A DNA stretch of 64,000 nt from Aeoliella mucimassa (GTDB taxonomy: Bacteria; Planctomycetota; Planctomycetia; Pirellulales; Lacipirellulaceae): positions 2,294,001 to 2,358,000 of the forward strand of contig NZ_CP036278.1 in the NCBI RefSeq assembly GCF_007748035.1. Reading direction: 5' to 3'. The position numbers and the translations under genes were made by a program. Position 1 is the stretch's first letter. The number at the start of each line of letters is the position of its first letter. Shown here one piece after another: positions 6,616-61,027 of this stretch. Under the pieces are notes generated by a model, which was not told where the DNA came from, ran no database searches, and saw only the letters and a list, made by a program, of their open reading frames with translations.

Positions 6616-6814
6616 CACCTAAGTATGACTTAGCAAAACCAGTATCGGTGAATCCACAGAACACCTTCCCCTCAACACGGTTCAATATAGGGGCGGGTCG
6701 AATCCGAATCGAGTCATTCTGCCAATCAAATCTAAGTGTGCACCAGAACAACATTTGCAGGCGTTTCCTGCGTTTCTTTCGTTCAAACGTTCCGATCGTC
6801 GAAGGGGCAATGTC

Positions 6815-7411
6815 ATGAAACACTTTCTGCTGCTAGCCGTAATCTTTAGCACCTGCATGGGGGTGCTCGAAGGGCAACCTCCACAAACTCCGGACGAAGA
6901 TGCCCTTCGTAAGGAAGAGATCAGAAGCGTACTCGAGCTCGTGAAGCTTACCGCAACTCCGGAATGGAGTTATGCCAGGCTTGAAGCTGCGGCCGACTTG
7001 ATCGTGATTGCCAGCGTCGACTCAAGCACAGCGATGGCACCGCACCTAGAAATTGAGCACGCACTTGGAGCGGCCACATCCACCCAGTACGACCATCGCC
7101 TGCAAGTGCATTCGGTTCTCAAAGGTGCGTGCGGTCAGATCCTTCATGTCGCGACTAGTGAATGGAAGGACGATGTCATCGTGATGACTAACTCCGATAT
7201 CGCTCGACTCCGCCCCACGTTGCGACTCCCTTTGCTCGTTGGTACTGAAATCGACGGAGTAATCACCTCGTACGGAAGTTCGACGCCGATTGAGACTTAC
7301 GACATTCATCCAGAGTATCTGCTGTACCTGAAGAAGTACAAGGACGACCTCTATGTACCAGTTTCAGGCCAACGCTTCTCGGGCCTAAGTGTCCGGTTGT
7401 TGAACAACTAA
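6815..7411 (+). CDS. Secreted hypothetical protein
   Basis: The start at ATG 6815 is preceded by GAAGGGG and opens a clear signal peptide (MKHFLLLAVIFSTCMGVLEG); upstream in-frame starts would bury it. The mature part of about 180 residues contains an ADLIVIASVDSST stretch followed by HSVLKG, a pattern I associate with small secreted planctomycete proteins of unknown role. No catalytic motif is visible. It is transcribed away from the cytochrome/DUF1501 operon and is followed by the aldo/keto reductase gene after 146 bases. I do not assign a function. Confidence 0.72.
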   Translation: MKHFLLLAVIFSTCMGVLEGQPPQTPDEDALRKEEIRSVLELVKLTATPEWSYARLEAAADLIVIASVDSSTAMAPHLEIEHALGAATSTQYDHRLQVHSVLKGACGQILHVATSEWKDDVIVMTNSDIARLRPTLRLPLLVGTEIDGVITSYGSSTPIETYDIHPEYLLYLKKYKDDLYVPVSGQRFSGLSVRLLNN

Positions 7412-47576: not shown

Positions 47577-48672
47577 ATCTCTCAAAATCCTCTAAACAAG
47601 ATTGCGAGCCGTTGTGGATCGCGAGGGCACTCTCCTTAAAAAGCCCAGGCGTGGTGCACTCAAGTAGCACACCAACCGACTCTACGAGCAGTGCTAAGGT
47701 TAGCGGCACCTGCTCGCTCAACGTGTTGCTTCCAGTCCTAGCTCTCTGTACTTCGAGTACCCCAGAGCGGTGGTTTGGAAAGATTCAAATAACTCACCGG
47801 CCATCCCCCGGATGGCCCTCTGCACGGCATTTGTATTCCGCGTAGGTGATTCCCTTGATAGCCGTCGTTACCAAATTGGCTTACGTCGCAGACCTCAAAG
47901 GCTTAATCGAACCAAAGTCGCTGCCTTAGTAGCGAATGGGCCCCTTGCCTCCAAGCCTTGGGCGACGTTCATCGGTGGTGAATGGTAGCGCGTAAGAAAG
48001 CGCCGGCACCTTCACCTACCAATAGTTGTTTGTAGTTTCCTTCTATAGAGTGAAGTTCCGCCAAGCCTCGTCTGAGCGAAAGCTGGTAGTCCATCTAGCG
48101 AATCTTTCCCTCTGAGTCACAGCCGAAAGACTCTTGGGCAATCAAACTCAACATGCATTCCGAGCAGGTTGCCTCGCTTGAAAACAAATACCACCCTCGA
48201 TCGACGACCATTTGCCTATTTAGCAATAGGGCAGGCTTGCCAAGTGCTCTGGGCAAAGGCCTCGCAGTGTCTGCGTGTCGGACGCCTCTGGACGCTGGGA
48301 AGATTCCGCGAAAAGGCGATTCCCTGGCGAAAAAGGCCGACCGACGAACGAAATGGCCTACAGAACCCACCCAACTCGGTGGGCAGGACGCTTAACTCAC
48401 AAGCAGTATTCGTTATTGCTGGCACCCTGTCAAGCGCGAATTCCACGACTTAGCCACCATTTTCCGCCCTTTACCTACCGGTTTTCCCCAGGTTCTCGTC
48501 CAAAACTCCGACGTCGCACACCGCTGCAACCAGCAAAACCCGCAGATTTAACCAAAGCCGCTGCCGTTGCCAGGCCGATATCAACGACGGACTAGCCGAT
48601 GGAACGCATACGGGGCGACGTGCACCCGTGGCTGCTCTCACGACTCCTCCCCGCAAGCCAAGGTGATTTTCC
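47577..48672. other. About 1.1 kb without a recognised gene
   Basis: The interval between divergent rho and the thioredoxin-like gene. Only one notable hairpin was seen: an 8-base GGCCATCC/GGATGGCC stem at 47799-47817. I found no tmRNA, RNase P RNA or SRP RNA core motif on either strand. Small frames here have no supporting signals. It is a candidate for a long rho leader or an unannotated RNA. Confidence 0.6.
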
Positions 48673-56818: not shown

Positions 56819-56891
56819 GCCCCGTTCGTCTAGTGGCCTAGGACACCGCCCTCTCACGGCGGCGACAGGGGTTCGACTCCCCTACGGGGTA
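56819..56891 (+). tRNA. tRNA-Glu (CTC)
   Basis: A 73-base cloverleaf. Acceptor GCCCCGT pairs with ACGGGGT (one G-U), the D-arm is CTAGTGGCCTAG, the anticodon CTC is flanked by CCGCC/GGCGG, and the T-arm is AGGGGTTCGACTCCCCT. CCA is not encoded. It is the likely integration site of the element to its right. Confidence 0.95.
56854..56891. other. Probable attachment-site segment of the integrated element
   Basis: The 3' half of tRNA-Glu is also the C-terminal coding end of the neighbouring integrase frame (stop at 56854-56856). Tyrosine integrases commonly use tRNA 3' ends. The other attachment site would lie beyond base 64000 and was not seen. Confidence 0.6.
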
Positions 56892-58199
56892 CTCTGTAAG
56901 CTTGTACACCTCGGGATTCACGCGATTCCCGGGGTTTTTTTATGCTTTGGCTGTCGTTGCTTCCGGTCACTTCCGCTATCTCCGGTGTGTTCCGCAACGA
57001 TTCTGCAACGTTTTCCGGCTCACTGCTGGTGGCTCGCTTGAAGTCCTCATCGGTCACCTGCCAATAGTGTGCTTGTCGGCGACCTTGGTGCTGTGCCCCA
57101 GCCAGGTAGCGGCCACGTGCCCGGGATGCTCTTTGGCAAGTTCGGTGGCTCTGGTTGCCCGCATGTTCTGAAAAAGCTTCGGCCAAGCTACTAGCCCGGC
57201 TCTCTTGATGATTCGTAGCAACTGAGTTCGCAGGTTGGAATTGGAATCTCGGTAGCGGGTAATTACCGGCAGCTCGCTGGTTGGCTGAGCTTCGGGGGTA
57301 AAGTCCTCGGAATCGATCAACTCTTGCCAAGCTGCCTCAAGGTAAGGCTGCAGCTGCGGAAACAGTGGCATAATCCGCTCTTCGTGGCCATCGTGGTGGG
57401 CGGTCTTGGGGCTCCTGACGCGGATTCTCTTGCGTTTCCAATCCACATCGCCCCAAGTTAGGGCCAGATGCTCCGACGGGCAGCGCAGCCCGCCGTACCG
57501 GCTCAGGGCGATGATGAGCTTCCACTGCGTGTCGGGGCATGCTTCGAGCATGGCGTCCGCCTCTTCGCTCGTGACGAAGTAATCACGCTTGCGATTGGCG
57601 GTTACGCTTGTTGCCTTCATGTCGGCAAATGGGCTTTCGTCAATCACTCGTCGCCGAACCGCGTCGCGAAAGAATTGCTTCGCTCGTCCGCACGTTCTGC
57701 GTACCGTGTTTTCCTCCAAGCCTTTCGCGATCAAGCTTCGCCGGAAGTCGTCCGCATCGCCCGGCGTGATGCTATCTAGGTCGCGGTCAACGGAAAAGAA
57801 CTCGACCAGATGCCCGCGAGCCACTTTCAAGTTGATGATTGTCCGCGGTTTCAGTTCTTCCGATCGCTTCGAAATGTAGCCATCAATGAAGGCCCCCAGT
57901 TTGGGCACCGCGGTCTGGGGCTTGGTGGCAACCCTGGGCGCACAGAGTTCGTACTTGGCCAACCGGTCCCGCAGCGAGTTATCGATTCGAGCAAGCCAGT
58001 CGGCAGTAGGTCCGTCGAGGATGCTCCCCGATCGCTTGGTAGATAGCAGGTTTTCGATGTGCCCCTTGGCGGCCTCGGCTTGCTTCTTGGTCAGTTGTCC
58101 AAGTGGAAACGTCGGCCGGTTCCGCTCCCCGATGTTCACTTGAACCGAGTAGCGGGGTTTGCCGGTCCTCTTCGACGTGGTCTTAATCAAACTAGCCAT
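56854..58199 (-). pseudogene. Tyrosine integrase, frameshifted before the catalytic Tyr
   Basis: The main frame runs from 58199 to a stop at 57054: an N-terminal Arm/SAM-like part, then the catalytic domain with RYGGLRCPSEHL (first Arg), HHDGHEERIMPL, MRATRATE (second Arg) and WLGHST (His). At about 57067-57071 an extra GT (AC on the coding strand) shifts the frame, so it ends ADKHTIGR. In the other frame the family C-terminus follows directly (HYWQVTDEDFKRA), with the catalytic Tyr, and continues into tRNA-Glu (YRVPRRGVEPLSPP, stop at 56854). As written the recombinase should be inactive unless a programmed frameshift or sequencing error is involved. Confidence 0.85.
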
Positions 58200-58355: not shown

Positions 58356-59654
58356 TCACTTTCCGAACCACGCCAGCACACCAGCCAGTCCCGCTGCAAT
58401 GCTGGTACGCTCCGGCTTAAATAGCAATTGGTCGGCTCGTTTCTCTTGAGAGTACCGAGGATCGATGTAGCTTGCTCTTGTTACTTCGTCGGACGAATGC
58501 CCCAAGCTTTCGGTCGCGTCGCCACCAGCACGATGCAACCAAGTGGCGTGAGTCTTCCGCAGCCGGTGGAACTTGGAGTCGCGGCCTGACGGTAGCCCGG
58601 CGTCCTCCAGGATTCTCCCGTATGCTTTCCATAGCGTGCTGGGGTCGCCATACATGAAAACCTTGTCGCTGCCAGGCATGGTGCGGAACAGGAGCCCCAA
58701 CGCCTTACACGACTCCGGTGAGAGCTTCTTTACTAACTCCCTGCCGCCTCCCTTCCGGTGGCTTATGCGGACAAATCTTTCGTGCAGGTCGATGTCGTCG
58801 CGTGTCAGCTGGAGCAAGGCTCCGATTCGTTCCGCCGTGTCCCACGATGTGTGCAGCAACGCCGGCCAGAACACCGAGCCGGGCATTCCGTAGACTTTGC
58901 GATTCGTGCGGCGTGCTTCGTCGAACAGCTTCCGCACCTCCTGCTTGCTCCAAGCCTTCGGTGCCTTTCGTGTCCTCGATGGCGATTTACATTCAGGCTC
59001 GGGCAGGGTGGTCCTCACAACACACCAGCGAGCGAACGCAAGTATCTTGTTTAACTCGCCGCGGATGGTATCGGCAACAGCCTTTTCGTTCTGACGAGCC
59101 TCGACGTACTTGGCGAAATTGGCGTCTGTCAGACTGCCGACCATTTCGCCACCTATCAGCCGAGCCCAATGATTGAACGCCCCATTGTAGCGGCTTCGGG
59201 TGTTCGTGCGGTGTTGCTTCACCGCATGGTATAGGCATCTCGCATCGGCAATCGGCGTCAAAAGGGTGATACCAGCTTGTTGCACTTCACCTGCGCGAGC
59301 GTCGTTTTCCTGCTCTTTCTTATCGAGTAGATCGACCGCTCTGCGAGTGTTGAACAGCAAAGCGAACTCGGTCGGATTCACCTCCCTTGCGATGGCTCGC
59401 ACCCGCTTGCAGTATGAGTGAGCGGTCTCGGCAGAGGAACCATTGTCGATAAGCCACTCGCCGAACTCGGCCAGGATTGCTTCGGTAACCTCGCCCATGG
59501 TAACGCTGTGCCCCGCGAACCTGTCGAGCGATGAAACCGCGACGCGATATTCCTTGGAGGTGCTGACAGCGTTACCCCAATCATCCTCCCGGGAAGGGAT
59601 AAACGATTCGTTTAGGTATCGCTCGATGGTCCAGTTTGCTAGCTCCTGATTCAT
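58356..59654 (-). CDS. Tyrosine recombinase/integrase, intact
   Basis: 432 residues. The catalytic set is visible in order: Arg in TAERIGALL, Lys in SHRKGGGR, His/Arg in HRLRKTHATWLH, His in SLGHSSDE and Tyr in ASYIDPRYS. The N-terminal half has SAM-like DNA-binding helices. It is more divergent than the tRNA-proximal integrase and not an obvious duplicate. ATG 59654 overlaps the upstream gene stop (ATGA). It could move the element or resolve dimers. Confidence 0.9.
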   Translation of the reverse strand: MNQELANWTIERYLNESFIPSREDDWGNAVSTSKEYRVAVSSLDRFAGHSVTMGEVTEAILAEFGEWLIDNGSSAETAHSYCKRVRAIAREVNPTEFALLFNTRRAVDLLDKKEQENDARAGEVQQAGITLLTPIADARCLYHAVKQHRTNTRSRYNGAFNHWARLIGGEMVGSLTDANFAKYVEARQNEKAVADTIRGELNKILAFARWCVVRTTLPEPECKSPSRTRKAPKAWSKQEVRKLFDEARRTNRKVYGMPGSVFWPALLHTSWDTAERIGALLQLTRDDIDLHERFVRISHRKGGGRELVKKLSPESCKALGLLFRTMPGSDKVFMYGDPSTLWKAYGRILEDAGLPSGRDSKFHRLRKTHATWLHRAGGDATESLGHSSDEVTRASYIDPRYSQEKRADQLLFKPERTSIAAGLAGVLAWFGK

Positions 59655-60220
59655 ACCGCACCCCCTTGCTTTTCGACAGATGCAAAGTCGGAGACCATGA
59701 AGTGAAAACGGTCCCTCTCTTTCTCCAGCTTCACCGCAGCCGCCATCGCATCACCGAGCGTCACATAGTGCGGTCGGTCCTCAACCGTCATCGGAACCAA
59801 GTCGGCACCGAGTAGGTAATAGCGGTCCTCGCCGCGGTAGTCTTTGTCGTCAATCGTTTCCTCGGCGATGAACATCCCGCAGTAAAGCGCTGCTACGATC
59901 AACGCACCGCTCGGGAACCGCTCATCCATGGGGTTTACGAAATCGCCTGCCATCGGAGGCGTGAAGTCGGTCGCCAGCTCGACGGGTCTTCCCAGCATGA
60001 TTGCATCACGCCAATGCAAGTCGTGAGTGTCGAAGCCTGGTTCGAGCTTGTAAACGATCGCGTTGTAGCGGTCGAAAACGTGATAGCTCCGGTGCGGCAA
60101 TAGCACATCGTGAATAGTAGAGGTCCATTCGCGACAACGCCCGTGGGTGTTCTGCCACTCAGCAACGAGTAGATGCTGCTCGCCACTCTTGCCCAGCAAC
60201 GCCTTGGTGATCGGGTACAT
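59651..60220 (-). CDS. Hypothetical protein upstream of the second recombinase
   Basis: 189 residues, no membrane segment. Stretches such as RSYHVFDRYNAIVYKLEPGF and DDKDYRGEDRYYLLGADLVP look globular. I do not recognise a family. Its ATG follows AAAGGG, which falls in the loop of a 6-base AGAAAG/CTTTCT hairpin (60221-60234), so initiation may be controlled. A large structured element lies 48 bases upstream. Coupled by a 4-base overlap to the recombinase gene; a partner or regulator of it is possible. Confidence 0.75.
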   Translation of the reverse strand: MYPITKALLGKSGEQHLLVAEWQNTHGRCREWTSTIHDVLLPHRSYHVFDRYNAIVYKLEPGFDTHDLHWRDAIMLGRPVELATDFTPPMAGDFVNPMDERFPSGALIVAALYCGMFIAEETIDDKDYRGEDRYYLLGADLVPMTVEDRPHYVTLGDAMAAAVKLEKERDRFHFMVSDFASVEKQGGAV

Positions 60221-60267
60221 AGAAAGCCCTTTCTTGGACTACCGAGAATCGGCAGGTCCAAAAAGAA

Positions 60268-60353
60268 AGAGCATGCGCGTACTGGCGTTGCTAGGCGGAT
60301 TGGAAGCCGCCCGGGGTCCTTACGGAGTCCCCACACCAATACGCGCATGCTCT
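60268..60353 (-). ncRNA. Candidate structured RNA / leader element
   Basis: On the minus strand an 18-base stem (AGAGCATGCGCGTATTGG with its partner, one G-U pair) encloses two hairpins, one with GGGG/CCCC and TCC/GGA stems capped by GTAA (a GNRA loop), the other GGCGG/CCGCC. The outer stem is followed by TTCTTTTT. The three-way-junction shape, the G-U pair and the GNRA loop all fit RNA made from the minus strand. It lies in the leader of the gene at 60220, so it may be an attenuator or a separate small RNA. No known RNA family recognised. Confidence 0.55.
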
Positions 60354-61027
60354 CTGATTTTCCAATAGAGTTTAGCATTCCAATTCCTCTTGTGTTGGGT
60401 GGTATCAGATGCCACCTAACGGGTTTAGCGTCCGTATGGTACGCCTTTTCGCTGAATCGTGTCAACCTGTGTTCGTGCTTTGCTCAGCGCGTACCACGGC
60501 CATCTTTGGGGCACTAGGGTCTAGCTCCCGCTCGGCGTCGCGAAAAATCTCATCAACTCCCGAGAGTTAAAAAGATTTCCTGCAAAATTGGTCGAAAAAA
60601 TCCGACTCGAACCAGATAAAGAGCCGTGAAGTCGATCCGATGTGCCCCGACCGGGTTGCAGGCTGGCAGTGCCCGGTACTTTTGCTGGTTACGAATCTCT
60701 TCGCGTTCGGGGGTGTGAGTCCCGCTTTGGTCGGCTTCCATGCCACTACTCGCCGCGCTGTATCGGGCGCGTTCTGGTGAGCAACGCCTGCCCCGAGATA
60801 ATGCAACCACGACCGCTTACGCAACTGCCCGGTGGGGTGTTGCTTCTCGCCTCGATTTGTTACACTAGTGGGTACTGACATTGTCTTTGTCGGCAATTTC
60901 GATTTGCCCTGTTGGGGATGCCACCCCCAGCAGGGTTTTTTTGTGCATCAGTGCGTTATTGTCCATCAAACGCATGATGCCTTCAAGACGGCATTCAACG
61001 CTCGAATAACCGTTAGCAGGTTCGAAC
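60354..61027. other. Gene-poor stretch of the element
   Basis: An imperfect 25-base palindrome (TTGGGTGGTATC A GATGCCACCTAA) lies at 60395-60419. A minus frame at 60553-60810 could be a small phage protein but has no support. A plus-strand terminator at 60907-60942 shows that something is transcribed rightward here. Confidence 0.5.
60907..60942 (+). terminator. Rho-independent terminator, plus strand
   Basis: CCCTGTTGGGG pairs with CCCCAGCAGGG (one mismatch), followed by seven T. A smaller GGCAA/TTGCC hairpin precedes it. A TACACT box near 60862 is a possible start of a short RNA. Confidence 0.85.

Follow-up and report, generated by a model that had tools for sequence, protein, structure and literature searches.

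What is the 86-base structured element in the leader that precedes a recombinase operon of the planctomycete Aeoliella mucimassa, and what does it act upon? A first-pass annotation of the 64,000-nucleotide stretch analysed here (NZ_CP036278.1, positions 2,294,001 to 2,358,000; hereafter the window) described it as a three-way junction of no class that it recognised, and proposed either an attenuator sensing a signal for excision or a small RNA with its own terminator. We argue that it is probably a trans-acting c4-type antisense RNA of the c4-2 group, placed in the recombinase-operon leader of a tRNA island of ~13 kb, where it would repress the integrase operon. The case is built from sequence: the fold of the RNA, its family, the complementarity of its two segments a' and b' to the leader, the integrase context, and the ends of the island.

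Structure and setting of the element

The element and the genes that follow it are laid out on the minus strand as follows:

60268..60353, minus: predicted c4-2 type antisense RNA, a three-way junction (fold, Rfam, covariation)
60320..60323, minus: GNRA-type loop GTAA of hairpin 1 (fold)
60299..60306, minus: predicted antisense segment b', the hairpin-2 loop CTTCCAAT (pairing with the leader)
60289..60293, minus: predicted antisense segment a', TAGCA, in the 3' junction, J3 (covariation of J3 with the leader)
60260..60267, minus: T-run TTCTTTTT, immediately 3' of the stem, terminator-like
60234..60261, minus: hairpin directly 5' of the Shine-Dalgarno of the first gene (folds)
59651..60220, minus: first operon gene, 189 aa, no family above curated cut-off
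58356..59654, minus: tyrosine recombinase 1, 432 aa (PF00589, E 1.2e-13)
57054..58199, minus: tyrosine recombinase 2, 381 aa (PF00589, E 2.2e-9)

Read from 60353 to 60268, the minus strand folds at -57.7 kcal/mol (z -8.41 against shuffles with a mean of -30.45, none of the 200 as good) into an outer stem of 18 bp, a hairpin 1 with a GTAA loop, and a hairpin 2 with an 8-nt loop, which is the architecture given in the first-pass annotation. The plus strand of 60268-60353 folds more weakly (-48.3 kcal/mol, z -5.71), so that the G-U pairs favour the minus strand, as had also been noted. The T-rich tract described right after the stem is there too, and together with the stem this U-run plausibly makes the element a small RNA with its own terminator, one of the two functions first proposed. 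Such a tract is common to the family: the first 8 nt past the element hold a mean of 5.5 T against 1.6 expected (39 loci). In the window, CTTTCTT of the T-run region is complementary to the downstream Shine-Dalgarno stretch AGAAAGGG.

The first operon gene starts 47 bases past the element and overlaps recombinase 1, a PF00589 protein, by 4 bases, in agreement with the earlier description of a leader preceding a gene coupled to a tyrosine recombinase. The ribosome-binding site of this gene had been placed in a hairpin, which holds for one part of it: the hairpin has 15 pairs, 12 of which form the helix at 60234-60261, and takes in AGAA of the Shine-Dalgarno stretch, whereas the GGG is free, so that the site lies merely partly in the hairpin. 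Similar hairpins, with a similar loop (ACTCT, ATTCT, AATCT etc., by eye), are seen in many of the loci L020-L044.

Assignment to the c4-2 family

At its curated thresholds, Rfam reported only two tRNAs in the window. A permissive scan matched the window copy to c4-2 (RF02944, clan CL00128) with 37.8 bits and an E-value of 2.6e-6, about 3 bits short of the gathering cut-off of 41, in a minus-strand match that spans model positions 1-79 of 79. A relative of the same architecture in another genome (G032) scores 41.2 bits and thus passes the cut-off. Altogether, c4-2 matches occur in eight of 59 related genomes, that of the window included, with one match above the cut-off; one c4-2 match (L014) was left out of the later locus sets. 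Where the first-pass annotation saw no known class, the sequence matches therefore make membership in a known antisense class, Rfam c4-2 / phage c4, well supported.

A first model, built from 5 copies, retrieved 25 matches, spread over 18 of 396 genomes of the order; the window's own genome accounts for four of these matches. These matches and L010 constitute the set of 26 loci used below, in which the window copy is L038. The covariance search that had been suggested as a check on the element bears the structure out: compensatory changes affect 30 of the 33 base pairs of the 26-locus alignment, 93.9% of its cells are paired, and changes on both sides of a pair amount to 192 cells against 55.5 in shuffles, a value reached in none of 500. 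Little besides the stems and the GNRA-type loop is invariant across copies (hairpin 1 of the relatives ends in GTAA, GCAA, GTGA or GCGA, by eye), while the hairpin-2 loop and the junction vary freely.

A second model, R2, built from the 26 loci, was run on 392 genomes across the phylum, where it gave 14 matches in 8 genomes (4 of the matches are those of the window's genome), and on 43 genomes across the family, where it gave 24 matches in 14 genomes. It matched none of five P1-like c4 loci, so that kinship to the c4 RNA of phage P1 rests on the Rfam clan and on shared wiring. Two early database scans with DNA patterns returned zero matches and are uninformative, as they use a junction spacing that only some members of the family have (one of the patterns matches just 1 of 38 known elements). 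A corrected scan of genomes found at least 80 loci, and R2 recognised two among the matches listed (L178 and L165), both planctomycete records. The corrected viral scan found 37 loci, of which R2 recognised none, with a pattern that finds just 10 of the 38 known elements, so that absence from viral contigs is not established. A tblastn search of the integrase against phages gave no match.

Loop and junction are matched to sites in the leader

Upstream of the element, the leader contains four candidate target sites, two for each variable segment of the RNA:

60426..60429, minus: candidate a1 site GCTA, able to pair with TAGC of a' (covariation of the a1 window with J3)
60378..60384, minus: candidate b1 site ATTGGAA, 7 nt, fully complementary to the hairpin-2 loop
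60373..60377, minus: candidate a2 site TGCTA, overlapping the leader ATG and complementary to a' (TAGCA)
60360..60366, minus: candidate b2 site ATTGGAA, likewise fully complementary to the hairpin-2 loop

All of them are at most about 110 bases away from the element; a2 directly precedes b2, and a1 is located at the putative transcript start. The direct repeats ATTGGAA at 60360-60366 and 60378-60384, and their complementarity to the hairpin-2 loop, do not figure in the first-pass annotation.

This complementarity is specific to each locus. In the 26 loci, a loop and its own leader share a longest Watson-Crick match of 6.7 nt on average, against 4.4 nt for a loop and the leader of another locus (0 of 20000 permutations). 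The b' signal is concentrated at -45 to -1 (on average 6.6 nt when matched and 3.9 when mismatched; 0 of 20000) and is absent at -110 to -46 (4324 of 20000), in the control stretch at -300 to -150 (4877 of 20000), and at +110 to +300 (13996 of 20000). J3, which carries a', covaries both with the a2 window and with the a1 window in the same loci (0 of 20000 permutations each). Since loop and junction are thus antisense to leader sites, the partner of the RNA would be its own transcript. The operon start downstream was also considered as the main target and was rejected, the b' excess at +1 to +110 being weak (239 of 20000 permutations).

The same relation holds in 13 later loci, which came from searches blind to the leaders (L109-L118, L119 and L120 through R2, and L165 as a DNA-pattern match recognised by R2), and whose loop and junction strings were parsed automatically, or by eye for L165. 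A b match of 6-8 nt is present in 11 of the 13, and permutations reach the observed agreement 0 times in 20000 for b and once in 20000 for a. The two loci counted as misses, L114 and L115, have b matches of merely 3 and 4 nt and are probably false matches.

Closely related copies show where the differences accumulate. For L109 and L116, two elements of one genome, the only differences, at 4 of 86 places, fall in the loop, and the leader boxes have changed to match. The window copy and L043 agree at 89% over the aligned stretch, and 8 of their 11 differences (over 86 places) fall in loop and junction. Such natural allele swaps, in which the RNA is identical save for the loop and the boxes match, open both pairing and specificity to direct tests. 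No two of the four copies in the window's genome have the same loop, and three of the loops pair best with their own leader by duplex energy (-9.7, -9.7 and -11.4); the fourth, that of L043, gives -7.0 with its own leader versus -8.8 with the leader of L044, and the L043 junction fits its own leader best (-6.3 vs -3.0).

There are exceptions: L030 and L041 match their leaders poorly, and L010, L031, L034 and L042 have one b site at most, with a b match of only 4 nt in L010. At L040, the a and b sites of the leader agree with each other yet mismatch their own RNA, and the downstream start looks eroded; we propose that it is a recombinant or decayed copy, and it was left out of the tally of G-U pairs over loci.

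Comparison with known c4 systems

The c4-type antisense immunity of phages P1 and P7 is the textbook case of this kind of control. A c4 antisense RNA is characterised by co-transcription with its target operon from a single upstream promoter, by a 5' end that RNase P produces, and by action in trans. In the annotation of P1, a1/b1 lie upstream of c4 and a2/b2 downstream, and in our reading of the P1 sequence a would pair with J3 of c4 and b with the hairpin-2 loop. The planctomycete element resembles P1 c4 (RF01695) in having a' in J3 and b' in the hairpin-2 loop, in the a-b order, and in the upstream position of a1/b1. It departs from P1 in three respects: a2/b2 lie downstream at the icd ribosome-binding site in P1, whereas both units are upstream here; icd/ant are controlled there, whereas the operon here encodes an integrase; and the stem is followed by a T-run in the window element and by none in P1. 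We would thus have the P1/P7 wiring in a distant phylum, applied to the integrases of tRNA-integrated islands and with both target units upstream.

Among P1-like prophage leaders (L048-L108), a, in the form TTGACAG or TTAGCAG, is combined with several b sequences, and these mixed alleles suggest modular immunity types among P1-like phages. In P1 itself (L046/L047), an ATG at 48267 overlaps b1 and opens a frame of 66 codons that runs through c4 to a stop at 48465, 2 nt before the ATG of icd (48470).

With c4-2 (RF02944) the element shares the three-way junction, the GNRA-type hairpin 1, the U residues after the stem, and a match over the full length of the model. That model covers the RNA alone, and the leader sites are candidates from the present analysis, by which the c4-2 family gains candidate targets and an operon to control. 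The planctomycete copies are also similar to the C4-like Group 1 sRNAs of Acinetobacter baumannii, which the passages of PMC5320573 available to us portray as multi-copy, chromosomal, variable in a', highly expressed and processed. Compared with what those passages report, the planctomycete copies are known from sequence, and candidate targets have been found in their leader. Among the papers listed from a limited literature collection, none deals with c4 RNA in connection with planctomycete integrases.

Promoter and leader reading frame

Two further pairs of signals can be recognised upstream of the element:

60460..60465, minus: putative promoter -35 hexamer TTGACA, 18-nt spacer to the -10 (sequence)
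60436..60441, minus: putative promoter -10 hexamer TACCAT (consensus only)
60385..60389, minus: possible Shine-Dalgarno GAGGA of a leader frame (sequence)
60376..60378, minus: ATG of the leader frame, open through the element, stop at 59935

The putative promoter is sigma70-like by consensus, and transcription from it would start at about the a1 site. TTGAC occurs at -170 to -55 in 24 of 36 loci, against 2 in a control stretch at -500 to -385; this count was used in place of a stricter promoter pattern, which 4 of 39 loci contain.

The leader frame of the window (60378 to 59935) overlaps the first operon gene. Its start has counterparts in the family, as 17 of the 26 loci have an NTG at -23 to -26 that overlaps a2 or lies just 5' of it. 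From this NTG the frame is open through the element in all 17, against 2 of 34 for the other two frames, a count among related loci that excludes the 9 of 26 lacking the conserved NTG. A wider test finds 20 of 20 loci open (product of chances 3.6e-12), again among related loci and including L025, L036 and L037, which were added as known open, so that 17 of 17 is the fair count. In 9 of 19 loci the start of this frame is preceded by an SD-like stretch, and L010 and L042 have no leader frame. The frame has different offsets in different loci, and between offsets the peptide shows no conservation, which is to be expected if translation itself, rather than its product, is what matters. The openness may be partly a by-product, as, by eye, the conserved stop codons of hairpin 1 (TAA) and of J3 (TGA/TAG) can fall into a single frame.

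We also considered, and rejected, the leader frame as a general feature of c4 systems. Only two of the 23 distinct leaders in the P1-like set of 61 loci (L048 and L082) have an ATG near b1 that begins an open frame, and in family f21 the frame is open throughout in four of seven loci. Because it is missing in most P1-like leaders and partial in f21, we claim it for the window's family at most.

Integrases, tRNA genes and the island

The recombinase context recurs across the family. The context set comprises 32 stretches that contain the element, of which two (L151 and L152) have no same-strand candidate ORF downstream; in the others, 30 downstream ORFs were chosen by size or position as recombinase candidates, and 26 of these match Phage_integrase (PF00589). 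Other chosen ORFs are the serine recombinase of L147 described below, a fragment with the integrase SAM-like domain only (L154) and a histidine kinase (L140); in the latter stretch, which contains element L109, no integrase-like frame of 100 codons was found within about 4.5 kb downstream. A tRNA gene overlaps the chosen ORF or lies at most 110 bases from it in 19 of 30 cases (ARAGORN), and in the window a tRNA lies 162 bases from the second recombinase. The 19 proteins encoded between element and recombinase gave one DUF5677 match and a sub-threshold Pfam match for the window's own protein, and none matched a PHROG.

One stretch (L147) has a serine recombinase at 6663-7271, minus strand (Resolvase, E 2e-45), with a c4-2-like RNA 29 bases 5' of it. 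This RNA, L113, is a more distant member with a leader b match of 8 nt, and the serine recombinase behind it indicates that the association may extend beyond tyrosine integrases.

In the window, one end of the island can be placed:

56871..56895, strand not assigned: 25-bp attachment repeat over the 3' end of tRNA-Glu, partner at window-coordinate 69894-69918

The second copy lies 5.9 kb beyond the window, and the two repeats delimit an island of about 13.0 kb; the island region at tRNA-Glu covers window position 56819 to window-coordinate 69918 (C1:2350819-2363918). Its genes include the two tandem tyrosine recombinases, the small terminase TerS, a DnaB-like/AAA protein, and head-protease-like and tape-measure-like proteins. 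PICI-like satellites are integrated at tRNA genes, measure 10-20 kb, and possess an integrase, a replication gene and a small terminase without a full virion set. The island is satellite-like and possibly a planctomycete phage satellite, but it may also be a prophage in decay.

Alternative explanations

The repeats and stems might act as DNA rather than as RNA. If the loop and the two leader boxes were operators, that is, sites for a repressor protein, the RNA stem would be just a terminator, and two direct repeats just 3' of a promoter-like sequence, varying between islands as operators may, would fit. Against this, two separate segments, J3 and the loop, each vary in step with sites of their own, which follow the antiparallel order that antisense pairing needs, the third copy of the box sits in the loop of a conserved and compensated hairpin, P1 c4 carries an antisense-RNA annotation, and no repressor family was found among the 19 proteins of the genes adjoining the element, all of which makes operators quite improbable. 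Even less can be said for a palindrome bound by the recombinase or marking a transposon end: long palindromic ends and adjoining recombinase genes would suit it, but the G-U pairs favour one strand, the stems are compensated, and the attachment repeat of the island is at the tRNA, about 3.4 kb away, so we give this reading hardly any credence.

Among RNA-based alternatives, a riboswitch or attenuator that senses a ligand and belongs to a new class would agree with the leader position, the three-way junction, the T-run and the ribosome-binding-site hairpin downstream. Yet loop and junction vary freely with no conserved ligand-like core to be seen, the element falls in a known antisense family, and its loop covaries with leader sites, so that such a switch is scarcely plausible; nor did the signal-sensing attenuator of the first-pass annotation find support, as no finding points to a ligand or signal and the variable segments are antisense to leader sites. 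A different proposal is an attenuator confined to cis, with the a-b units pairing within the same transcript and setting the terminator, and no small RNA set free. Its pairing partners would be at hand within about 110 bases, and the T-run directly after the stem is what it calls for. In the fold, however, a' and b' are unpaired, so that a partner can bind them and leave the stem intact; b2 is 6 nt from the 18-bp stem, at whose far end the loop sits, a geometry in which intramolecular pairing looks strained; and P1 c4 is listed as trans-acting in passages of PMC12197685 and PMC5320573. We therefore regard a purely cis-acting device as unlikely and retain the trans-acting antisense RNA.

Proposed mechanism

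For this antisense RNA, one promoter would give a transcript in the order a1, b1, a2, b2, c4-2, T-run and operon, from which the folded RNA would be freed by termination at the stem and U-run, or by processing or cleavage. Its a' and b' segments would then act in trans on any leader that has this specificity, pair with the a-b units there and shut the operon, so that integrase would stay low as long as an island of that specificity is resident, and an incoming island of the same specificity would be shut off too. Because RNA segments and leader sites change together, the integrase is probably kept off in an island-specific manner, and the four different loops in the window's genome are consistent with a shut-off based on specificity. 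We infer that the RNA is expressed, acts in trans, blocks translation, and confers island-specific immunity.

In the window's family only, antisense binding may block translation of the leader. The b1 and a2 sites cover the start of the leader frame, not that of the first operon gene, and since this frame extends from there through the RNA and the Shine-Dalgarno, binding would stop leader translation. With the ribosomes gone, the RNA and terminator would fold, and the downstream hairpin and Shine-Dalgarno would stay closed. A more speculative extension, which we regard as possible though doubtful, is a bistable integrase switch made of RNA only, in which ribosome transit and antisense binding are mutually exclusive: transit would melt the RNA and open the operon start, binding would block the ribosome and let more RNA form, and loop and junction would serve as interchangeable specificity codes. 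If so, several islands could reside in one genome without cross-talk.

Finally, a hairpin at 60538-60583 on the minus strand, 5' of the promoter, gave a weak mir-255 match, presumably spurious, and possibly insulates the operon as a terminator.
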